Positions 357-31,596 of a stretch of DNA of 39,948 bases are shown one piece after another. Position numbers and translations under genes: made by a program. A model generated the notes under the pieces. It worked only from the letters and a program-made list of their open reading frames with translations, was not told the DNA's origin and made no database searches. The first letter of the stretch is position 1. Each line of letters starts with the position of its first letter. Origin of the DNA: Melioribacter roseus (GTDB taxonomy: Bacteria > Bacteroidota > Ignavibacteria > Ignavibacteriales > Melioribacteraceae); the NCBI GenBank assembly GCA_020722085.1, contig DYLN01000018.1:1-39948 (forward strand), written 5' to 3'.

Positions 357-2066
357 TTATTCGGTTGATACCAAATACCTTTTTATTTTTTGGGTTGTAG
401 TTTTTTCAAATTCCTGTTCACGGATGTAAAACTTTCTTATTTGTTTATAGCTCGCAAGTTCTTTATTTATTTTTTCTATCTCTTCGCCTATCACCTTTTC
501 AATTAATTCGTCACTTATCTGGATTTTTTCCAGTTCAGATTTTTCTATAAAAGCTTCGGCATCCGGAACAATCATTGCTGCTATTATCTCATCATGTTTC
601 AAATCTTTCTCGCCGTAAACCAAACTTTCTAAAATAAACTGGCTTCTATTCAGCAAATCTTCTATTTCTTCAGGAAAAACATTTTTACCGCTTCGTGAAA
701 TAATTACATTTTTCTTCCTTCCATTTATATGCAGAAAACCATTATCATCCACGTAGCCGATATCTCCGGTTTTAAACCAGCCGTTTTCAAATACAGCATT
801 TGTCATTTTTTCATTTTTGTAATAACCGAGCATTACATTGGGTCCTTTTGCCCATATTTCACCGCTGCCAAGTTCATCGGGTTCATTTATTTTCAATTCA
901 ACAGTTGGCAGAGGCAATCCGGCAGCATTATCCATAAAATTATCAATTCTATTTAATGTAAGAATTGGGGAGGTTTCCGTTAATCCGTAGCCTTGTACAA
1001 AATTAAAACCAAATTCACGTAAGCCTTTCGCAACAAGCGGATCGGGAGCCGCACCGCCGGCAATAAATAATCTAATTGCACCGCCAAATCTACGATGAAG
1101 TTCGGCAAATATTTTTTTCTTAATCTCTTTCAATCCAACCAGTGAAATTAGATTGGTGAGTTTTAAGAGCGGCGGAACAATAAATGATTTAATCTTATCT
1201 TCTTTTATTGATTTCATTATTCTTTTAAACATCTTATCGTAAAGCAAAGGGACAGCTAATAAAATTGTTGCTTTTACTTTTTGTAGGTCATCAACGATTG
1301 TTTTCAGTGACCGTGCATAATGGACCGAACTTCCCGAATAAAGCGGACACAGCATGCCGCAAGTACATTCATAAGTATGATGAATTGGAAGAACCGATAA
1401 AAAACGGTCGTTTTCGGTAATGCGAATCATGCTCGTCATATCCATCAAATTTGAGGCAAGATTTTTTTGTGAAAGCATTACACCTTTAGCTCTCCCGAGT
1501 GAACCTGAAGTGAAAATAATTTCTGCTAGTTCATTTGGATTAATGACTGGGAGATCTTCAAGCTGAGATTCCTTTGCATCGGAAATTAATTTTATCATGC
1601 TCACAAAATTTTTGTCTTCCAGTGTTTCATCCATACAAATAAAATATCTTAAATTCTTTAACGATAGTTTGGCTTCAGCCATCATGCTTGAAAAAGAACC
1701 AGAAAAAATAACTGCTTCCGAATCCGATTCGTGAAGTATGTTAAAAATTTCATTTGAGGTTAAGTTTTTATCGATGGGAACAACAACATAGTTGAAACAC
1801 ATACATGCCAAATAGCTTATTGCCCATTGAACCCGGTTTTCGCCAATTATTGCTATGTGAGTTTTTTCTTTCAGCCCAACGTGTTTTAAAGCCGAGCCAA
1901 ATTTTAAAATATAAGAAAGCAATTCTTCATAGGTTACCCTTCCTATTGGCGACGTATTCAAGTCCTCTAAAGCCAGTTTATTCCCAAAACGCCTTGCCGA
2001 CTTTAGGATCATATCTTGAATAGAATCAATTTTAGGGACATCAAAAAGTTTTAATTCTTTTTTCAT
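357..2066 (-). CDS. AMP-forming acyl-CoA synthetase (long-chain fatty acid-CoA ligase type)
   Basis: This 569-residue member of the ANL adenylating family should activate a carboxylic acid, probably a fatty acid, to acyl-AMP and then acyl-CoA in the cytoplasm. Visible motifs in order are the phosphate-binding loop TSGSLGRAKG (186-195, a variant of TSGTTG), YGLTETSP (360-367), GWFKTGD (429-435), the hinge GRKKN (about 449-453) and the C-terminal A10 segment TTTQKIKR with the expected catalytic Lys at about 560. Length is normal for the family. The ATG start follows a GAGGG Shine-Dalgarno sequence four bases upstream. It is the last gene of the clpS-ychF-pepD-ligase run, 59 nt after pepD. The exact substrate cannot be read from the sequence; an acyl-ACP synthetase role is also possible. 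It is unrelated in architecture to the second, giant ligase-like protein at 21383-26158. Confidence 0.9.
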   Translation of the reverse strand: MKKELKLFDVPKIDSIQDMILKSARRFGNKLALEDLNTSPIGRVTYEELLSYILKFGSALKHVGLKEKTHIAIIGENRVQWAISYLACMCFNYVVVPIDKNLTSNEIFNILHESDSEAVIFSGSFSSMMAEAKLSLKNLRYFICMDETLEDKNFVSMIKLISDAKESQLEDLPVINPNELAEIIFTSGSLGRAKGVMLSQKNLASNLMDMTSMIRITENDRFLSVLPIHHTYECTCGMLCPLYSGSSVHYARSLKTIVDDLQKVKATILLAVPLLYDKMFKRIMKSIKEDKIKSFIVPPLLKLTNLISLVGLKEIKKKIFAELHRRFGGAIRLFIAGGAAPDPLVAKGLREFGFNFVQGYGLTETSPILTLNRIDNFMDNAAGLPLPTVELKINEPDELGSGEIWAKGPNVMLGYYKNEKMTNAVFENGWFKTGDIGYVDDNGFLHINGRKKNVIISRSGKNVFPEEIEDLLNRSQFILESLVYGEKDLKHDEIIAAMIVPDAEAFIEKSELEKIQISDELIEKVIGEEIEKINKELASYKQIRKFYIREQEFEKTTTQKIKRYLVSTE

Positions 2067-5918: not shown

Positions 5919-5928
5919 GGTGAAAATC

Positions 5929-6903
5929 ATGGCAAATAAAATTTTAGTATTTATCGAACAACGAAACGGGCAGATTAAAAGGTCATCTTTTGAAGCCGTG
6001 CATTTAGCTGCCCAGATGGCATCAAAATTATCAACCGGAGTGGAAGCGATAGCAATTGGAAATGAAATCCAAAATCTTGAAAAAACTGGCGGTTACGGCG
6101 CAGTGAAGGTAACTCATTACAAAAACCAGCAGCTTGAAAATTATTCTGCTTCCGCCTATAAAGACATTCTTGCAAAACATTTTATTGACAATAATTTTGA
6201 CATCCTGATTATTTCCAATACTTCCCTTGGAAAAGATCTCGCACCGCGTATAGCCGTTAAAATTGATGCAGGAATTGCTATGGATTGTACTTCATTTTCC
6301 TACGAAAACGGAAACATAATTGCGACTCGGCCTGTATATGCCGGTAAAGCATTAATTGATGTTAAAATAACAAGTAACAAAAAAGTGTTTTCGCTTAGAC
6401 CTAATGTGTTTGCTGCCGGTACTCCAACAGACCTTCAATCGGAGATTGAAGTGAAAAACGTTGAAAATCCAAATCTTGCTGAAAAAGTTGTTGATATCAA
6501 AAAATCCGACAGCAGGCTTGATGTCGCAGAGGCTGACATCATTGTCTCGGGCGGCAGGGGTTTGAAAGGTCCAGAAAATTTCAAATTGGTTGAAGAGCTT
6601 GCCTCTCTATTAGGAGCTGCAACCGGCGCATCCCGCGCTGTTGTTGATGCAGGCTGGCGTCCGCATAGCGAGCAGGTTGGACAAACAGGTAAAACCGTCT
6701 CCCCCTCTCTTTATATCGCCTTGGGCATTTCGGGTGCTATTCAGCACCTTGCAGGTATGCGATCTTCGAAATATATTGTTGCTGTTAATAAAGACAAAGA
6801 TGCTCCGATTTTTCAAATTGCAGATTACGGAATTGTCGGGGATGTTTTTGAAATTGTTCCGGCTTTAATTAATGAACTAAAAAAAATAAAGGGACAAAAG
6901 TGA
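5929..6903 (+). CDS. etfA: Electron transfer flavoprotein, alpha subunit
   Basis: This 324-residue EtfA is the FAD-carrying partner of EtfB. The N-terminal domain runs to about residue 190. The C-terminal FAD domain shows SGGRGLKGPENF, then GASRAVVDAGWRPHSEQVGQTG, SPSLYIALGISGAIQHLAGM and NKDKDAPIFQIADYGIVGD, all standard EtfA flavin-binding segments. The ATG at 5929 is preferred over the GTG at 5920 because GAGGTG directly upstream serves as its ribosome binding site and the family normally begins MxxILVFIE. Its stop codon overlaps the GTG start of the next gene (GTGA, 4 nt), so the BFN/UVR protein is probably translationally coupled to it. The length is normal. Confidence 0.95.
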   Translation: MANKILVFIEQRNGQIKRSSFEAVHLAAQMASKLSTGVEAIAIGNEIQNLEKTGGYGAVKVTHYKNQQLENYSASAYKDILAKHFIDNNFDILIISNTSLGKDLAPRIAVKIDAGIAMDCTSFSYENGNIIATRPVYAGKALIDVKITSNKKVFSLRPNVFAAGTPTDLQSEIEVKNVENPNLAEKVVDIKKSDSRLDVAEADIIVSGGRGLKGPENFKLVEELASLLGAATGASRAVVDAGWRPHSEQVGQTGKTVSPSLYIALGISGAIQHLAGMRSSKYIVAVNKDKDAPIFQIADYGIVGDVFEIVPALINELKKIKGQK

Positions 6904-18112: not shown

Positions 18113-21246
<3,134 letters not shown>

Positions 21247-21382: not shown

Positions 21383-24300
21383 TTAAATTTCCGACAGGTT
21401 TTTCACCAAGCCGGAGTATTTCTTTTCAATTTTAAAACCAAAACGGTAGAAATATTCCGGTCTAAAATAACCTGTAGTAAGTGATTTATAACCGTCGTTT
21501 TTCAGCCTTTTGATAAGTTCAGTCATTAACCCTTCGCTTACACCTTTTCTTCTATACATATTAGAAACAACTATCTTTTCCATGTGTACTGTATTTTCGT
21601 CTATCTGAAGGTAGAAAAGACCGCCGATTATAAATCCTCTCTCAGAAAGAGCAACCAGAAACTGGTGTTCAGGTCTGAAATTAACTATTAAATTTGCTTC
21701 GATAAAGAGTTGGTGAAGCCGAGAAATTTCTTTTGGAGAAATTGGTTTTCTTACTAAAAAAATATTTCCGTCGTAGTCGGCTAACTGAACAACAAGGTTC
21801 GACTGCTCTGAGCCTTCAGATTTCACTTTTATGATAACTGCAGAATCGGTCGGTTTAAGAAATGGATAGGTTAACCGCGTTAAGAAAAAGTTTTCTTTAT
21901 CAGATAAATTGAATTTAGCATGTAGATCCGTTAAAAGCGATGTAGCTTCATCTTTTGTAATCTCATGAAATTTCTGACGTTTCATAATATCAAATAATGC
22001 GTTCCGAAAAGTCGGGTCAGAATCATTAAATACTGTTTCAAGGAAAAATCTGATTCTTGTTTCCGGGAAATGTTTTTCAAGCTCAGGCAAAAAGTAAGTC
22101 TCATATAAGTCGTATAGCATTGTAGCCTGTGCACTTATATCGGCATCTTTGTTTAATGCAAACCACCGATTGAATCGTTTAATCGAAAAAAATAACTGCT
22201 TAGGAATATAACCGTAATTTTCAACCTGTTCTATAAATTTGCTCAATTCTTTTTCAAGTTCTTCCAGTTGAGGATTTATTGTGTCGCTGATAATTTCCTT
22301 TTTGAGTAAACGAAGCAATTTTAATCCATTGCTTTCTCCTTCTGCATTTAATAAGCCAGAAAAGATATAATTCCACGCGGATTTTGATTTGAGCAAAGGA
22401 AATTCTTTCTCTGTTAAAAGTACAAATCCAGTATAAAAACTTGTCAAAAAATCAATTAGTGATTTAAATTCTCCTCTTTCAGAAAAAGAAACTATCCTTG
22501 TTCCTGTTTGATAATCATGGGGAGGAATAATAAAATTATCTGCTTTAGGGTCGGTAAGCTGAAGTTTATATCCGGTCAATTTCCAGAAATTGCAGTAAGC
22601 AGCAGCGGCATTCCATATAAAAAACTGCCATAGCAGTGAAAGTTTTACGCTGCTTGTTTCATCTTTTTTTCTTAACTCTTTTTGAATATATTTTTTTACT
22701 GTATCGCCGGGTACAAACTTACCGGTCCACATATCGTAATGCTCCCAGTAGCCGCCGAAGTCTTCAAAAAATTCATTAGTAAAATGACCACTGCCAGCAA
22801 GTATTAGCCAGTTGATTTCTTCCAGAATATTTTCCTTAGATAATTTCTTATTTATGTTAAGCACAAATTCAAAGCCGCCGTAAAATCTTGTCTGAACAGA
22901 AACCCGGTAAACGGATTTATCATGGTAGCTCCTTAAGTGGCTTATCCAGATTCCGCGTGGGAAAATATCATCAAGACGGACAAGTTTCCCGTGAGAAAAA
23001 ATAAATATTGCTTCCCGAAGAAGCGCGGTTTCGATAAGAGCCTCGGTAATTATTCCTCTATCGCCGACGTCAATGTTTTCATCATAAGTAATAACGTCAC
23101 CCCATGTGTATTCATATCCGGTCTCGGCATCAACGGCAATTTTTTGATTGGGACCAAGCCATTCTCTAAAGCTGTCTCTTAATTTTAAGCGACTGTTCAG
23201 CGCCAATAAAGATAATTCATCCCAGTCTTTACGAATCTGATACTTTACATAAATTTGTCTTATTCTTTGATAGGAAGCTGGATGATTCGTTCCATAAATT
23301 TTCAATAAATCAAATAATCCTGGCACATAAGTATTTTTTAATGGATAAACTACTTCGACGGTTTTATCATCTATGAGATTTTCAATAATCGATATAAGAT
23401 CAAAATCACGCGTGCATTTAACAACATTCTCTATTACATTATCATTCAGTAAGTCATTATCATAATTAAGATAGTTTTTAAAGAGGACTGTCAAATTAAG
23501 ACTATTTTGGGCGGCGAAAGAAACAATGAACATTTCTCTTCTTAATTCAATCGATTTACAGAGACTAGGTCTCAACAGGATATCAAGTGTTAATCTATAA
23601 ATCGAAAGTGAAGGATCGTGTAAGATGTTTGAAATATAGTTCAACGCTAATTTGCTTTCTTGAGAATCTGATTGAAGTACAAGAACGGCAAGACTCAATC
23701 CGCGCAAAGAATATTCGCCAGAAAAAGAAATTTTCTTGAATGAATTTATGAGGGATGAACAATCAATTCTTTCACTGGCTGCAGAATAGAAGTAAATATT
23801 TTTATCGGGATTATTCTGTCTAACCCATTCAAGTACTGCACTGCCGGTAAACTGAAATATTTCATAATTGCCGAGCCACAAAAGCGGATTCGTAAATATT
23901 GACTGCAAATCTATATGATCTGTATTAACCAAATAATTAAAACTTCCTATCTTTATAATATTATCATTCTTCTTTTCTATCGATAAAGACAAGTTTAATT
24001 TAGGAATAACAAGAAAAGAACCATTTGATGATACCTCCCTGCTTAAACTTCCCTTCTCACGCAAAAACCAGTTTGGCATCCAAACTTCCAAACCGTTTAT
24101 TTGAATTTGAGTATGAGGCTTAACATACATCTGCTCAATAAGATGTTGAAAATTTTTTTCGATGATGCGTCTTTTATAAGTTCCTTTCGGAGTCAACTCA
24201 TCGTATTGAGAAGAAAACGGTCTGTCGGTCAAACGAAAATCAACTATTCTTTCGAACGGTGAAAGAAATTTATTGACTGATACTACAGTTGAAGCAAAAT

Positions 24301-26158
24301 ATTCTTGCTTTTGCTGTAAAGTCATCTCTGCAAGTACAGTTTCTTCAAATTCCTTTTTGGGGTTTATAAGAATTGTATTGAACGGTTTGTGATCCCCTAC
24401 TAAAAAAACTTGATTAATGAATCCAAAATCTCTAAAAAGATTCTCTATTTTCTGGGGTGCAATTGTTTCGCCCTTAATATTCTTGTATATCTCTTTTTTT
24501 CTATCAACAATTTCAATAAAGCCATTAGAGTCCATTTTCATTACATCGCCTGTATGAAACCAGCCCTCTTCATCAAAGGTAGTATTTTTATCTTCGTCAA
24601 AATAACCAAGCATCACATAAGGACCTTTAATTGCCAATTCCCCGTCAGACAAAACTTTGATTTCGATTCCTGGAAGGGCACAGCCTAAAGAATCATGCAT
24701 ATATTTGCCAGGAGGTGTCATTGTTATTCCGCCGGTTGCTTCAGTCATTCCAAAACCACTCATCAATTCAACACCATATCTTTGAAAGAACTGAAAAATT
24801 TCGGAGGGCAGATAGCCGGCAGCCGATAATCCCCATTTTAACTTCTCACCGGTGACTGCCTCTATAACAGATTTAATTTTAGTTTCCTCTTCGGTTTCAA
24901 TGTTAATTTTAGATGAAATAAGCTCATAAAGCTGCATCCATTTCTTGGGCACGCTTATAAATATTGTCGGCTTAAATATCCGCATGTTTTCAGTCATCGT
25001 TTCAACAGAAGGGTTCTCCATAAAACAATATTCAGTCCCCCAGAAAATAGAACCAAGCATTTCAAAGTATCTGCCGAATGTATGATACAAAGGAAGGTAT
25101 GCTAAAAATCTGTCGGACTCTCCTATTTCGGGTATTGCCATGGCTCGGCAGAATCTTTTATAGACAATATTTAATTGTGAAAACATAATCCCTTTCGGGT
25201 CACCAGTGGTTCCGGATGTATACATTATTGTTGCAAGAGAATCTATTTTAATTCTGGCTCTGAATTCATTCTGATCTTTTTCGGATGTACGAGCAGCAAG
25301 AAGTTTAAAATCATCAAAAGAAGTAATCCAATCGCCCGCAGCTATTCCTTTAACAAGGATTATTTTCTTTAAATATTTCAATTCATCTTTTATTGAACGG
25401 ATTTTTATCAGTTCTTTTTCATCGTAAATAAATAAGACTGAAGCTTTGGTTTGGTTTAATATGTAAGATACATGGCTGGGGACAGAATTAGCGGGAATCA
25501 TAACATTAACAATGCCGGTTGATAAACATGCAAGGTCTAGCAGAGCTGTTTCGAGCGAGTTGTCCAGCAAAAAAACAACAAATTTATTTTCTTCTTTATA
25601 TACAAGCGAGCACAATGATTTTGAATAAATCTCAACAATTGATTTTACGTCAACCCATTTGAATTCCCTGATACTACCGTTATCAATTAATTTAAATAAG
25701 ATTTTATTACCGTAGTCTTTTACTCTTTGGTTAAAGAGCTTTTCTACGGTAAAATTGGAATGAACTATTAAATCGAGTATTAGCTTTTCCCACTTTTTCT
25801 CTCCGTAAATTCTTGTTAAGAAGCCTGGCAGTCTAAACAAATCAAGATAATCATAAATAATCTGATTTATAGTTTCGGATTGGCTCGTGCTCAGTAAGTA
25901 TCGACCAAAGTTAAAATAAATTTCCTTGTTAATTTCCGAAGAAAATATTTTGTAAAAATTCGAGGGGAATAAGTTCAGAAATATTTGGGAGATTTTTGGG
26001 GGAATTTCTTTTACTGCAAATGAGTTTGTATTTATAATTTCATTAAGGCATTCATCAAAAAGTTGGGTTAATTCCTTTGTTTCTTCTTCAGAAACCGAGC
26101 CTTTTCCGGCTAAAAGTGTTGAAATAATCTGTGAAAGTTTTTCCGTGAGGTTATTCAT
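21383..26158 (-). CDS. Giant multidomain protein: AMP-forming ligase-like domain, unassigned middle, C-terminal GNAT
   Basis: This 1591-residue protein is unlike standard acyl-CoA ligases of 500-600. Residues 1-130 are helical and unassigned. An ANL adenylation domain spans about 135-680, with YTSGTTGDPKG (about 313-323), GFGMTEATGG (468-477), GWFHTGD (532-538) and DRKKE (552-556). The A10 segment LTPKGTYKRR (655-664) appears to have Thr660 where a catalytic Lys is expected. Residues 690-1430 match nothing I recognise; they include a helical stretch at about 800-990, DPKADN (1203-1208), which resembles the D-x-K-x-x-N of kinases, and more helices. The last 120 residues form a GNAT acetyltransferase with RRKGVSEG (1536-1543) and YFYRFGF. 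It starts 2 nt after the lytic transglycosylase stop. No signal peptide or anchor is visible. It may be acyl-group or acetyl-group transfer machinery; the substrate is unknown. Confidence 0.85.
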   Translation of the reverse strand: MNNLTEKLSQIISTLLAGKGSVSEEETKELTQLFDECLNEIINTNSFAVKEIPPKISQIFLNLFPSNFYKIFSSEINKEIYFNFGRYLLSTSQSETINQIIYDYLDLFRLPGFLTRIYGEKKWEKLILDLIVHSNFTVEKLFNQRVKDYGNKILFKLIDNGSIREFKWVDVKSIVEIYSKSLCSLVYKEENKFVVFLLDNSLETALLDLACLSTGIVNVMIPANSVPSHVSYILNQTKASVLFIYDEKELIKIRSIKDELKYLKKIILVKGIAAGDWITSFDDFKLLAARTSEKDQNEFRARIKIDSLATIMYTSGTTGDPKGIMFSQLNIVYKRFCRAMAIPEIGESDRFLAYLPLYHTFGRYFEMLGSIFWGTEYCFMENPSVETMTENMRIFKPTIFISVPKKWMQLYELISSKINIETEEETKIKSVIEAVTGEKLKWGLSAAGYLPSEIFQFFQRYGVELMSGFGMTEATGGITMTPPGKYMHDSLGCALPGIEIKVLSDGELAIKGPYVMLGYFDEDKNTTFDEEGWFHTGDVMKMDSNGFIEIVDRKKEIYKNIKGETIAPQKIENLFRDFGFINQVFLVGDHKPFNTILINPKKEFEETVLAEMTLQQKQEYFASTVVSVNKFLSPFERIVDFRLTDRPFSSQYDELTPKGTYKRRIIEKNFQHLIEQMYVKPHTQIQINGLEVWMPNWFLREKGSLSREVSSNGSFLVIPKLNLSLSIEKKNDNIIKIGSFNYLVNTDHIDLQSIFTNPLLWLGNYEIFQFTGSAVLEWVRQNNPDKNIYFYSAASERIDCSSLINSFKKISFSGEYSLRGLSLAVLVLQSDSQESKLALNYISNILHDPSLSIYRLTLDILLRPSLCKSIELRREMFIVSFAAQNSLNLTVLFKNYLNYDNDLLNDNVIENVVKCTRDFDLISIIENLIDDKTVEVVYPLKNTYVPGLFDLLKIYGTNHPASYQRIRQIYVKYQIRKDWDELSLLALNSRLKLRDSFREWLGPNQKIAVDAETGYEYTWGDVITYDENIDVGDRGIITEALIETALLREAIFIFSHGKLVRLDDIFPRGIWISHLRSYHDKSVYRVSVQTRFYGGFEFVLNINKKLSKENILEEINWLILAGSGHFTNEFFEDFGGYWEHYDMWTGKFVPGDTVKKYIQKELRKKDETSSVKLSLLWQFFIWNAAAAYCNFWKLTGYKLQLTDPKADNFIIPPHDYQTGTRIVSFSERGEFKSLIDFLTSFYTGFVLLTEKEFPLLKSKSAWNYIFSGLLNAEGESNGLKLLRLLKKEIISDTINPQLEELEKELSKFIEQVENYGYIPKQLFFSIKRFNRWFALNKDADISAQATMLYDLYETYFLPELEKHFPETRIRFFLETVFNDSDPTFRNALFDIMKRQKFHEITKDEATSLLTDLHAKFNLSDKENFFLTRLTYPFLKPTDSAVIIKVKSEGSEQSNLVVQLADYDGNIFLVRKPISPKEISRLHQLFIEANLIVNFRPEHQFLVALSERGFIIGGLFYLQIDENTVHMEKIVVSNMYRRKGVSEGLMTELIKRLKNDGYKSLTTGYFRPEYFYRFGFKIEKKYSGLVKNLSEI

Positions 26159-27204: not shown

Positions 27205-28521
27205 CTATTTGACTTCTACTTTCTTGGCTGCAAGCTCTTCTAACATTGCAGTGGTAACAGACTTAGGTCTTTCAATTGGATAGCCTAAAGCCCTTGCCCA
27301 GATAATGTTCGAACAAACGCCCAATGCGCGTCCAACGCCGAATAATACGGTATAAAATTCGTATTCCCGTACGCCATAATACCATTGTATAACACCAGAT
27401 TGTGCATCGACATTTGGCCAAGGATTTTTGGCTTTGCCCTGTTCTAGCAGAATTGGCGGCACGACTTTAAACAGTATATCGACATATTTGAAAATTAGAT
27501 CATCCGGCAAATGCTTTAAACAAAATTCTCTCTGTGCCATGTAACGCGGGTCGGTTTTTCTCAAGACTGCATGACCGTAACCCGGAATAACCTGGCCGCT
27601 TTTCAAAGTATCCCAAACAAATTTTTTCATTTCTTCTTCGGTAGGAATTTTGCCGCCCATCTTATCCATAACACCTTGAATCCACCTAAGAACTTCTTCA
27701 TTTGCCAAACCGTGCAGCGGACCGGCTAAACCATCTAGCATAGCGGAAATTGCATAATAAATATCTGAAAGTGCACTTGCAACCAAATGGCCAGTGTGAG
27801 CACTTACATTACCACTTTCATGATCGCTGTGTAAAATGAAGTACAAACGGGCAACATCATCATAAGGTTTTCGAATTCCCATCATATGAGCGAAGTTACC
27901 CCCGAAATCCAAATTAGGATCTCCTGGAATAATATTATCATTTTTATACTTCATCCGGTAAATGTGAGAAGCTATCTCAGGAAGTTTTGCCAGAAGATTC
28001 AAAGCATCTTCGTAGTAAGGTTCCCAGTAATTCATCTTGTTTATGCCTTCATGGTACTTCTTTACAAATTCAGATTCCCGCTGCATCGCAAGAATAGCAG
28101 CGGAAAACATTGTCATCGGATGTGTATCACGCGGCATTGCACGAATTACATCAAAAACATACTGCGGTACTTTTTTCCTTCGGTTAAACTCTTCATGAAC
28201 TTCTTTAACTTCTTCTACTGTTGGAATATCTCCGGTTAATAACAGATGAAAGAAACCTTCGACGTACGGCATTTCGCCGCCGGGAACCTTGGGTAATTTT
28301 TCAAGAACTTCAGGTATTGTAAAGCCTCTGAACCTAATACCTTCGTAAGGGTCAAGATATGAAATATCGGTAACGAGACTTTTCACACCGCGCATTCCAC
28401 CTATAGCCTGTTCTATTGTAACCTCTCCAATCTTTACATCACCGAATTCCTTGACAAGTTTTGCTGTGCGGGGACGCCATTCATTGATTTTTTCTGCGAG
28501 TTTGCTTTTTAATGTGGACAT
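27205..28521 (-). CDS. gltA: Citrate synthase, mitochondrial/Geobacter type
   Basis: This 438-residue enzyme condenses oxaloacetate and acetyl-CoA to citrate. It is unusual because its sequence follows the eukaryotic mitochondrial enzyme rather than the usual bacterial type: PGYGHAVLRKTDPRY, LEQGKAKNPWPNVD, YYTVLFGVGRALGV and LGYPIERPKS nearly match the pig protein. The catalytic residues equivalent to pig His274, His320 and Asp375 are His270, His317 and Asp372 here. Such forms are known in Geobacteraceae, so the gene need not come from a eukaryote. The start ATG has a near-perfect AAGGAGG eight bases upstream (28530-28536), one of the best ribosome sites here. It follows hpnE by 74 nt, so it may also have its own promoter. 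A hairpin terminator follows the stop. Confidence 0.95.
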   Translation of the reverse strand: MSTLKSKLAEKINEWRPRTAKLVKEFGDVKIGEVTIEQAIGGMRGVKSLVTDISYLDPYEGIRFRGFTIPEVLEKLPKVPGGEMPYVEGFFHLLLTGDIPTVEEVKEVHEEFNRRKKVPQYVFDVIRAMPRDTHPMTMFSAAILAMQRESEFVKKYHEGINKMNYWEPYYEDALNLLAKLPEIASHIYRMKYKNDNIIPGDPNLDFGGNFAHMMGIRKPYDDVARLYFILHSDHESGNVSAHTGHLVASALSDIYYAISAMLDGLAGPLHGLANEEVLRWIQGVMDKMGGKIPTEEEMKKFVWDTLKSGQVIPGYGHAVLRKTDPRYMAQREFCLKHLPDDLIFKYVDILFKVVPPILLEQGKAKNPWPNVDAQSGVIQWYYGVREYEFYTVLFGVGRALGVCSNIIWARALGYPIERPKSVTTAMLEELAAKKVEVK

Positions 28522-28595: not shown

Positions 28596-29900
28596 CTATG
28601 CCGTTACTAATTTACTAATTATTTTCTCTGCTGCCAAATGTCCGCTATAAACTGCGCTCTCAATTGTCGAAGGTAAACCCGTATCAGTCCAATCCCCTGC
28701 AAAAAAAAGATTACTAAAAGGAGAGTCTATCTTTTTTCTGACTGAACAAAAATTGTTATTTGGAATAAATGTGGCGCGTTTTTCCTTAATAATTTTCCAA
28801 TCAACCACGTTTTCCCTTTGAAACAAATTAAAATAAGATTCCAGCTCGGAATAAAACATCCCAAGTATTTTTTCGTTTGGAAGATCTATAAGATTATCAG
28901 CCGCACTTGTAACTAACGTAATATGTTTTTTATGGTTAAACAGCCAATGAATTTTTGAATCAATTAATCCATAAAATTTTTGAGAAAAATTATTTTCTTT
29001 GAGCCATAAATGTACGTTCAAAATAGGTGAATAAGAAAAAACGGCTTTATAGTTTTTAAACATCTCATCGAAAGGCTTTATTTTAAGAAGCGAATAGAAT
29101 GGAACAGCAACAATAACAAAGTCAAAATCGGAATAGGAATTTTTGTCAGTTAAAATAGTAGCTGCTCTGTTTTTATCATCGAAAAGTATTTCATTTAATT
29201 TTTCGGAAACGTAATAACTTCCACCCTTTCCCAAAATATATTTAAGTGACGTTTCCACAAAAATTTTGTTCAAACTGGCATTCGGTAAAACAAGTACAGA
29301 AGCTTCGTCCCCTTCTAAAAACATTTTTTTTAAGATATGAGCGAACTGGGAAGCCGCTGCTTTTTCAGGTTTTGTATTCAAAGCCCCGACAACCAAAATT
29401 TCCCAGAAAGCTTTGATGGCATTTCCCGGTTGTTTTTTTTCGTTAAGCCATTCTTTAACAGTGATATTTTCTAAGTCTTCTTCATAACAAAATAATAAGT
29501 CAATTAAAAAATCAATAATCTTCAATCGTTCATGCACAGTAATCGCTTTGTAATTCATCAATCCGGCAAGAAGATTAAACGGATAGTGCTTCTCCGTAGT
29601 TTTTAAAAAGGAAATTTTATTGCCCCGATGGGCAAAGGGTATATTAAGCGATTTTTGAAAGTCCAGATAATCGAGAGAGCCAATACGCTTTAGAAAAGAA
29701 ATTGTATTATAGTAGCATCCCATTAAAATATGTTGACCGTTATCATATTCGTCGTCAAATTTTTCATTATACAACGAATACGCCCTGCCGCCAATTTTAG
29801 GAGATGCTTCTATAAGGTGAACGTCAATTCCATTTTCTAAAAGAAGGGATGCTGCCGATAAACCTGCGAAACCACCGCCGACAACGATACATTTTGCCAT
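28596..29900 (-). CDS. hpnE: Hydroxysqualene dehydroxylase (HpnE-type FAD amine-oxidase-fold enzyme)
   Basis: This 434-residue flavoprotein is predicted to reduce hydroxysqualene to squalene as the third step of the HpnCDE route, with FAD. The N-terminus has the dinucleotide fold IVVGGGFAGLSAASLLLENG with an acidic loop at EASPKIGGRA that contacts the flavin. The C-terminal FAD segment reads FFAGDWTDTGLPSTIESAV. The length is in the normal range. Its ATG overlaps the hpnD stop in TAATG. The alternative is a carotenoid desaturase of the CrtI group. The context of hpnC and hpnD supports HpnE. Confidence 0.87.
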   Translation of the reverse strand: MAKCIVVGGGFAGLSAASLLLENGIDVHLIEASPKIGGRAYSLYNEKFDDEYDNGQHILMGCYYNTISFLKRIGSLDYLDFQKSLNIPFAHRGNKISFLKTTEKHYPFNLLAGLMNYKAITVHERLKIIDFLIDLLFCYEEDLENITVKEWLNEKKQPGNAIKAFWEILVVGALNTKPEKAAASQFAHILKKMFLEGDEASVLVLPNASLNKIFVETSLKYILGKGGSYYVSEKLNEILFDDKNRAATILTDKNSYSDFDFVIVAVPFYSLLKIKPFDEMFKNYKAVFSYSPILNVHLWLKENNFSQKFYGLIDSKIHWLFNHKKHITLVTSAADNLIDLPNEKILGMFYSELESYFNLFQRENVVDWKIIKEKRATFIPNNNFCSVRKKIDSPFSNLFFAGDWTDTGLPSTIESAVYSGHLAAEKIISKLVTA

Positions 29901-30742
29901 TAATAAACTAGACTATATTTTGCCCATACGCCTAAAGAGATTGCTGCTTTTTCAAACTTGTTTACTTTTATTTTTTTATTATAGACATCAAATTTTTTTG
30001 TTTCAAGTTTGCGCAGAAGTTTTTTATAGATATGTTCCATCGCTCTTGCAGCAAACATTGCCGGTTTGTCATCAAAATCCAATGAAGCATCAGCTTGTTG
30101 AAAGAGCAGCTTTGCTCTGTCGGCTTCGTACTGCATTAACGAAACAAAATTTTGATTGTAATTCCCATTTAGAAGGTCATATTCAGAATAGTTGAATTTT
30201 ACCATATCGTTCTGCGGTAAATAGATTCTTCCGGCTTTTGCATCTTTGTAAACATCCCTTAGAATATTAGTCAATTGCATTGCCAAGCCAAGATTAATCG
30301 CATATTCTCTAGCGGATTTGTTTTTATAACCGAAAATCTCAATGCTCATTAAACCGACAGTCGATGCGACACGATAACAGTATTGTTTAAGATCATCAAA
30401 TGTGAGATATCGTTTTCGCTGCAGGTCCATTCCCATGCCGCGTATCAACTCAAAGAAAGGTTCGAGAGGAATGTTAAACTGTTTGATTATAGAAGCCAGT
30501 TTGTTTAGTAAAAAATATTCGGAATCACCTTTGATTGATTTTTCTAATTCTATTCTCCACTTACGAAGTTTTTCATAACGAATATCATCTGTCTCAATTC
30601 CTTCGTCAATTATGTCGTCTGTTTTTCTGCAAAATGCGTAGACGGTATTCATGGCATCACGTTTAGCAGGTGCAAGCAGACTAAATGCATAATAAAAACT
30701 GCTCTGACTTTTTTTAGCTATTTGTTTTGCTTGATCTGTCAT
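29900..30742 (-). CDS. hpnD: Presqualene diphosphate synthase (HpnD)
   Basis: This 280-residue isoprenoid synthase should condense two farnesyl diphosphates to presqualene diphosphate. The two Asp-rich motifs that bind diphosphate-Mg are DDIIDEG (about 41-47) and DVYKDAKAGRIYLP, and the N-terminus SSFYYAFSLLAPAKR is typical of HpnD. The ATG at 30742 follows the hpnC stop by 2 nt; a TTG at 30748 overlapping that stop is also possible and would add two residues. The stop overlaps the hpnE start. The length matches the family. In carotenoid pathways the same fold makes phytoene or dehydrosqualene, but the HpnC and HpnE neighbours argue for squalene. Confidence 0.9.
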   Translation of the reverse strand: MTDQAKQIAKKSQSSFYYAFSLLAPAKRDAMNTVYAFCRKTDDIIDEGIETDDIRYEKLRKWRIELEKSIKGDSEYFLLNKLASIIKQFNIPLEPFFELIRGMGMDLQRKRYLTFDDLKQYCYRVASTVGLMSIEIFGYKNKSAREYAINLGLAMQLTNILRDVYKDAKAGRIYLPQNDMVKFNYSEYDLLNGNYNQNFVSLMQYEADRAKLLFQQADASLDFDDKPAMFAARAMEHIYKKLLRKLETKKFDVYNKKIKVNKFEKAAISLGVWAKYSLVY

Positions 30743-30744
30743 TA

Positions 30745-31596
30745 TCAAATCAATGCTTTTATCATTAGTAATAAGTATTCTTTTCTGGATAATTTCGGTC
30801 TATTATTTAGTACATCGTAATCCAAATCTTTTATCTTTTGCAAGATTTTCTCTCCTCCTAAAATAGTCCATTTAATTTGGAATCTTAAACTTCTGGGAAG
30901 ATACTTTAATATATTTTTACCATGAACAAACAAATTACGAACTCTTTCTATCTGATAGAGCATCAGCGATTTAAAATTAACATTTATTCTTTTTAACTCA
31001 AACACATTTTCCGGTACATGATGTTTTCTTAATTCATCTTCAGGTAAATAAATTCTTCCCTTCCCGTAGTCAAACGAGACATCCTGATAAAAATTAGTTA
31101 GTTGCAGTGCCGTACATATTGAATCAGAATATGGAATAATTTTTTCATCTTTAATTCCGTACAGTTCAAGGATAATTCTGCCAACGGGATTTGCCGAATA
31201 GCTGCAGTATTTCAAAAGTTCGTCATAATTTTGAAATCTTTTTTTTGTACAGTCGAGTTTAAAAGCACGCAGAAGATTATAAAAATTTTCATGCTCAAGA
31301 TTAAAGATGTCAATTGTATTTTTTAGTGCGCCCCAAAAATCATTTACACAATTTCCCGAAAGGCAATCTGTGAATTCTTTCTTATATACTTTTAGTTTTT
31401 GCAGCTTTTCTTCTTCAGCATCATTACCTTCATCTGCAATATCATCGGCTTGCCTGGCAAATTGATAAATAACAGCTATATGCTTTTTTAATTTATGCGG
31501 AATAAAAAATGAAACAACAGGAAAGTTTTCGTAATGGGAGGAGGTAAATTGAATTGCAAAATCGTAAGCCGGTTTATAAATGTTATCGGTCTTCAT
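30745..31596 (-). CDS. hpnC: Hydroxysqualene synthase (HpnC)
   Basis: This 283-residue squalene/phytoene-synthase-fold protein is predicted to convert presqualene diphosphate to hydroxysqualene. It carries the N-terminal block SHYENFPVVSFFIP that marks HpnC, the first Asp-rich motif in RQADDIADEGND and the second in NFYQDVSFDYGKGRIYLP. The ATG has no Shine-Dalgarno site I can recognise. It is the first gene of hpnC-hpnD-hpnE and lies downstream of tRNA-Leu, after 137 nt of A+T-rich DNA that probably holds the promoter. No squalene-hopene cyclase gene is in the window, so the end product (hopanoid, other triterpenoid, or C30 carotenoid) cannot be told from here. Confidence 0.9.
   Translation of the reverse strand: MKTDNIYKPAYDFAIQFTSSHYENFPVVSFFIPHKLKKHIAVIYQFARQADDIADEGNDAEEEKLQKLKVYKKEFTDCLSGNCVNDFWGALKNTIDIFNLEHENFYNLLRAFKLDCTKKRFQNYDELLKYCSYSANPVGRIILELYGIKDEKIIPYSDSICTALQLTNFYQDVSFDYGKGRIYLPEDELRKHHVPENVFELKRINVNFKSLMLYQIERVRNLFVHGKNILKYLPRSLRFQIKWTILGGEKILQKIKDLDYDVLNNRPKLSRKEYLLLMIKALI

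Follow-up and report, generated by a model that had tools for sequence, protein, structure and literature searches.

A bacterial fusion of an AMP-forming ligase, a kinase-like middle region and a GNAT domain: a probable new type of large enzyme for acyl transfer

A stretch of DNA of 39,948 nucleotides from Melioribacter roseus (contig DYLN01000018.1; the whole stretch is referred to below as the window) encodes a large fusion protein, probably an acyl-transferring enzyme of a new kind, in which an AMP-forming ligase of the ANL superfamily, a small beta-rich domain, a region of helical repeats, a kinase-like domain and a GNAT acetyltransferase domain follow one another in a single chain. The gene is complete and lies on the minus strand (21383..26158), with its ATG at 26158 and its stop codon at 21383–21385, and the single open frame runs for 1,591 residues without an internal stop; translation of the plus strand meets many stops, and the first-pass annotation had named no strand. 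Pfam models match the protein at residues 160–519 (AMP-binding, E = 1.6e-55), 560–679 (AMP-binding_C_3, E = 7.7e-11) and 1492–1574 (Acetyltransf_1, E = 1.3e-7), and the roughly 750 residues between the latter two have no Pfam match in the query protein. The first-pass annotation, made from the sequence alone, had described an ANL domain and a C-terminal GNAT domain in one uninterrupted frame, and both the Pfam matches and the open frame agree with that description. Taken singly, the domains have known folds or folds that resemble known ones. New to us are their combination, the pseudokinase-like middle and a change in the A10 motif of the ligase, and no description of this ANL/kinase-like/GNAT architecture was found in the literature searched (which covered few subscription papers).

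The architecture of the fusion protein is firm. The same fusion is present in more than 60 relatives, in separate genomes, distributed over the phyla Ignavibacteriota (among the named genomes scanned, many Melioribacteraceae and Ignavibacterium), Calditrichota, KSB1 and Acidobacteriota, which answers in the affirmative the earlier question of whether it is one family across phyla. It is common to three sequence groups (a near form, a distant form and a third group, family f56), and the order of ligase, beta-rich, helical, kinase-like and GNAT domains does not vary among the four phyla or across three levels of divergence; nearly all uncut frames are about 1,510–1,640 residues long (1,513–1,553 in f56). 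Dozens of mutually independent genomes have this fusion at this length, and two of the loci lie on complete chromosomes (CP070637.1 and CP053447.1), which rules out an assembly artefact joining separate genes. Among 58 relative genomes, the near form occurs in 31 (44–75% identical, counting both complete copies and copies truncated where a contig ends) and the distant form in eight (about 30% identical), and none carries both. An even sample of the phylum has the fusion in 21 of 395 genomes, leaving aside two weak family-f31 matches that proved to be unrelated open frames; within the class, 55 of 391 genomes match, one of them trivially, and these include the third, more divergent group. In the phylogenetic tree the distant form makes up one clade and the near form the other, the Calditrichota sequences are nested among those of Ignavibacteriota, and the locus L071 is sister to the gene in the window. 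In the genomes searched, every occurrence of the middle region was joined to the ligase and the GNAT, contig-cut fragments and trivial short matches aside.

The N-terminal region (residues 1–130; 25769..26158, minus strand) is poorly conserved, with 28–38% identity to near relatives as against 48–61% for the ligase domain, and has no match in Pfam. The ligase domain that follows it (residues 131–685, PF00501 and PF23562; 24104..25768, minus strand) is long-chain acyl-CoA-synthetase-like in its Pfam, NCBIfam and PDB matches; it matches AMP-forming ligase models only, long-chain acyl-CoA synthetases being the closest, and it belongs to the ANL superfamily by its P-loop motif A3 (residues 313–323) and by motifs A5 (468–473), A7 (535–538) and A8 (552–560), which are conserved in all three groups. 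The exception is the A10 motif, which reads ELTPKGTYKR here (residues 654–663; 24170..24199, minus strand) and ELTPKG[TS]xxR across the family. We aligned the A10 column of 63 members with those of two long-chain synthetases from the same genome, one further paralogue and three plasmid ANL homologues: the canonical lysine column (position 660) holds threonine in 57 and serine in six of the 63 members, and the two synthetases (ELTPSLKIKR and ELTPTLKLKR), the paralogue (EKTTTQKIKR) and the plasmid homologues all have lysine there. The third group shares the change seen in the near and distant forms. Lys658, two residues before the canonical column, is invariant (63/63). Judged from the motif, either the lysine may have moved or the first half-reaction may have been lost. 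Feruloyl-CoA synthases have a similar T-x-K-G motif and yet are active. In several ANL enzymes, adenylation is strongly impaired when the A10 lysine is mutated (PMC11255334). Since the canonical column is threonine or serine throughout the family, we go no further than to infer, as the first-pass annotation did, that an activated acyl group could be the product of the ligase half. Elsewhere in the window (357–2066) lies the gene for a second, ordinary AMP-forming acyl-CoA ligase, with an electron-transfer flavoprotein gene (5920–6903) about 4 kb away.

The middle region had been described at first pass as matching no known family, and this still holds: 36 homologous middle regions gave no repeatable match in Pfam (isolated chance matches aside), and a profile of the region had no match among PDB sequences. 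An AlphaFold model of residues 690–1591, built with 39 relatives (pLDDT 88.9), comprises a small beta-rich domain (residues 690–775, IPNWFLREKG...LWLGN; 23834..24091, minus strand), supported also by conserved columns, helical repeats (residues about 776–1010; 23129..23833, minus strand), a mixed domain and the GNAT domain. The helical-repeat region is all-helical in the model and fast evolving, with 13–34% identity to relatives outside the genus. Foldseek comparison of this model with the PDB retrieved PI3-kinases (Vps34, E = 1e-4), protein kinases and GNATs. When the mixed domain was modelled alone (residues 1000–1435, 57 sequences; pLDDT 91.1, pTM 0.86), its best 50 matches in the PDB were all kinases (best E = 7e-6, probability 1.00), and the predicted domain (residues about 1015–1435; 21854..23116, minus strand) has the bilobal fold of protein and lipid kinases. 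The TM-scores of these matches are modest (0.35–0.56 by target length), and the kinase-like fold is thus a distant one. By a reading of secondary structure rather than by superposition, the predicted strand order fits beta1–beta5, hinge, alphaE, catalytic loop, beta7 and beta8; the hinge region is shorter at three of the four third-group loci L140–L143.

On this reading of the strands, column counts over near and distant members give the residues that would stand at the catalytic positions of this domain. The equivalent of the catalytic loop is DPKADN (residues 1203–1208; 22535..22552, minus strand), in which Asn1208 is kept in 44 of 53 near and 10 of 10 distant members; the position of the HRD aspartate is occupied in the near form (n = 53) by D in 25, N in 18 and E in 7, and has no conserved acid in the distant groups. 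The DFG equivalent is SFS(ER) (residues 1224–1228; 22475..22489, minus strand), where the column of the metal-binding aspartate is serine in 50 of 53 near and 10 of 10 distant members (60 of 63 rows) and likewise in the third group, and no conserved beta3 (VAIK) lysine was found across the aligned members. With serine for the DFG aspartate, no conserved beta3 lysine and a variable HRD aspartate, the domain does not have the residues of an active protein kinase and looks inactive, and for these reasons we call it pseudokinase-like. The family adds a conserved bacterial domain of this kind that has no Pfam family. A His-Asp pair in the beta7–beta8 turn (HDYQTG, 22502–22519) is invariant in the near form (53/53).

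The GNAT domain (residues about 1436–1591; 21386..21853, minus strand) is among the best conserved, at 57–91% identity across the near relatives tested, and its superfamily is clear from Acetyltransf_1 matches in 25 of 25 members and from the fold matched by Foldseek. Its coenzyme A motif (R/Q-x-x-G-x-G/A), within YRRKGVS (residues 1535–1541), reads R-R-K-G-V-S here, with serine last; the distant group has the canonical R-G-R-G-I-G, and the third-group loci L140–L143 have R-G-x-G-x-G. Glu or Asp at position 1527 is kept in all aligned rows, L106 left out. The best solved relatives of the GNAT profile are GCN5 histone (lysine) acetyltransferases (E = 1e-9), with the next GNATs at 5e-6, a relationship that is only suggestive of protein lysine acetyltransferase activity; curated acetyltransferase families match weakly, RimI and the amino-acid acetyltransferases as well as any, and the GNAT sequence does not indicate the acceptor.

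The conserved neighbour of the fusion gene is a type I (mitochondrial-like) citrate synthase (PRK09569; NF007128, 740 bits; 27205..28521, minus strand). Among the near-form Ignavibacteriota loci, 36 have 2 kb or more of upstream sequence and are informative, and in 25 of these the citrate synthase gene is found upstream of the fusion, on the same strand and at a distance of one to three genes; in the acidobacterial locus L122 this type of citrate synthase is convergently adjacent to the fusion and in L121 it is five genes off, and no such linkage was seen in the loci examined of the distant groups and Calditrichota. Type I citrate synthase is present in 30 of the 31 near-form genomes versus 10 of the 27 others (Fisher 1e-6, an association partly confounded by phylogeny), and within family f3 alone it accompanies the near form in 5/5 versus 2/14 others (p = 0.002). 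Across the 58 relatives, some lineages have replaced type I citrate synthase by types that are roughly 49% or 30% identical, and the near fusion goes with type I rather than with the replacements. The outer neighbours vary, with an hpnCDE block and CTP synthase to mreB in some loci and unrelated genes in others.

The closest known systems in working principle are Pat/PatZ and AcsA–AcuA. In Pat/PatZ the synthetase domain, NDP-forming but inactive, serves as an acetyl-CoA sensor through which the fused GNAT is controlled (PMC8556138). Like Pat, PatZ and SlPatA (type I/II), the protein described here joins a large acyl-CoA-synthetase-like domain to a GNAT, and in those proteins the synthetase domain works as a regulatory sensor (PMC8556138); unlike these NDP/ADP-forming proteins, it has an AMP-forming ANL ligase and about 750 extra residues, including the kinase-like domain, before the GNAT. 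Because its ligase is AMP-forming the fusion falls outside Pat, as the early remark that the pairing is unlike PatZ had anticipated, and none of the five types into which bacterial GNAT protein acetyltransferases have been classified is AMP-forming (PMC8556138). In Bacillus subtilis, the GNAT AcuA binds the AMP-forming synthetase AcsA and acetylates its A10 lysine (PMC11255334), so that an AMP-forming acyl-CoA synthetase is paired with a GNAT in that system too; AcsA and AcuA are, however, two proteins with no middle region, whereas the fusion is one polypeptide whose A10 lysine column is threonine or serine. With the long-chain acyl-CoA synthetases of the AMP-binding_C_3 type (FadD11-like) it shares the ligase fold and motifs A3, A5, A7 and A8, but its canonical A10 lysine is replaced and its ligase is joined to the middle region and the GNAT. 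As an analogy only, helical repeats, a PI3K-like dead kinase and a Gcn5-type acetyltransferase also occur together in Tra1/TRRAP and Gcn5 of SAGA (PMC5982823); SAGA is a eukaryotic multi-subunit complex without an ANL ligase, and there is no evidence of common descent of the two architectures.

We tentatively favor the reading that the protein is cytosolic and acts as a large N-acyltransferase dependent on acyl-CoA, most likely acylating protein lysines in the manner of Pat/PatZ but with an AMP-forming ligase module. In its favor are the fixed domain order, the strong conservation of the GNAT and its GCN5 relatives, the changed A10 column beside conserved nucleotide motifs, which recalls the inactive sensor ligase of PatZ, and the type I citrate synthase neighbor; against it are the missing citrate synthase linkage in the distant groups and Calditrichota, the weak matches of the GNAT to RimI and amino-acid acetyltransferases, and Lys658, which may simply stand in for the A10 lysine. 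The ANL module would bind ATP, acyl-AMP and CoA and would either make acyl-CoA in cis or sense its supply; the helical and pseudokinase module would be a scaffold (or regulator) that binds the target and couples the state of the ANL module to the GNAT; and the GNAT would acylate an amine, probably that of a lysine in some protein of central metabolism, with the type I citrate synthase next door as the first candidate for target or partner. A sirtuin is encoded in the same genome and could reverse the modification; sirtuins occur both in fusion-bearing genomes and in genomes that lack the fusion. A search of this genome for an NDP-forming ligase frame of PatZ size gave none. Should the protein prove to be a protein acyltransferase, it would extend the five accepted domain types by one with an AMP-forming ligase and would combine, in a single chain, the activation of an acyl group with scaffolding of the target and transfer. 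The most specific form of the idea is a sixth, so far unrecognised type of bacterial protein acyltransferase, in which one chain would unite an AMP-forming ligase that supplies or senses the donor in cis, a PI3K-like helical and pseudokinase scaffold and a Gcn5-like GNAT. Its substrate would be type I citrate synthase, at the branch point of acetyl-CoA, and it would amount to a bacterial counterpart of Tra1–Gcn5 in a single chain; taken whole it is a long shot. Lysine acylation of citrate synthase in these little-studied phyla is a directly testable idea.

The main competitor to a protein acyltransferase, somewhat unlikely in our estimate, is a self-contained biosynthetic N-acyltransferase, in which the ANL domain would activate a fatty or aryl acid and hand the thioester in cis to the GNAT, giving an N-acyl small molecule or aminolipid, with the middle region as a structural scaffold. 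The closeness of the ligase to long-chain acyl-CoA synthetases, the retained nucleotide motifs and invariant Lys658 (which may replace the A10 lysine and leave the ligase fully active), and the weak similarity of the GNAT to amino-acid acetyltransferases are consistent with it, but the fusion has no carrier-protein domain, the neighborhoods examined have citrate synthase rather than biosynthetic genes as the conserved neighbor, and GCN5 proteins are the best solved relatives of the GNAT. An ANL domain that is purely a sensor, binding acyl-AMP or CoA without ligase activity and gating the GNAT, is a decidedly less probable reading: Lys658 could be a displaced catalytic lysine, and the feruloyl-CoA synthases point the same way. 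For it speak the A10 column (Thr/Ser in 63/63) beside otherwise invariant nucleotide motifs, a combination that recalls the inactive sensor ligase of PatZ, together with the precedents of Pat, with its inactive NDP-forming domain (PMC8556138), and of AcsA–AcuA, where an AMP-forming synthetase and a GNAT form a regulatory complex (PMC11255334).

That the middle region works as an atypical kinase, with the ligase on one side and the acetyltransferase on the other, is very improbable, for although the predicted fold, the mostly retained catalytic-loop asparagine, the Asp or Glu at the HRD position of many near members and the invariant HD of the beta7–beta8 turn would suit it, the DFG aspartate is serine in essentially all members, the beta3 lysine is unconserved and the distant groups lack a conserved acid at HRD; on this evidence we set it aside as the default reading. 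Least credible of all is a role in the envelope or in peptidoglycan, as an enzyme coupled to the neighboring SLT-domain lytic transglycosylase (PF01464; 26161..27099, minus strand). The 2-nt gap between the two genes, which the first-pass annotation took as a hint of an envelope link, is real, but the transglycosylase adjoins the fusion gene only in the window and in its sister locus L071, so the comparative neighborhoods speak against that link; inspection of the model of residues 690–1591 brought up neither secretion nor membrane features. A defense-system reading was dropped after a PADLOC search returned no match.

Several other genes recur around these loci. In part of the distant group, a 379-residue multi-pass, acyltransferase-like membrane protein is the conserved neighbor at position -1 on the opposite strand (L129, L130 and L131), and L127 has a related frame of 456 residues. 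A 500-residue TPR-like secreted protein encoded at 18113–19615 of the window has no Pfam match at 1e-10; in about 15 loci it is retained on the downstream side of the CTP synthase gene. Upstream of citrate synthase, many near-form loci carry a block like the squalene synthesis genes hpnC/hpnD/hpnE, and the corresponding block of the window, named from its sequence, spans 28596–31596.
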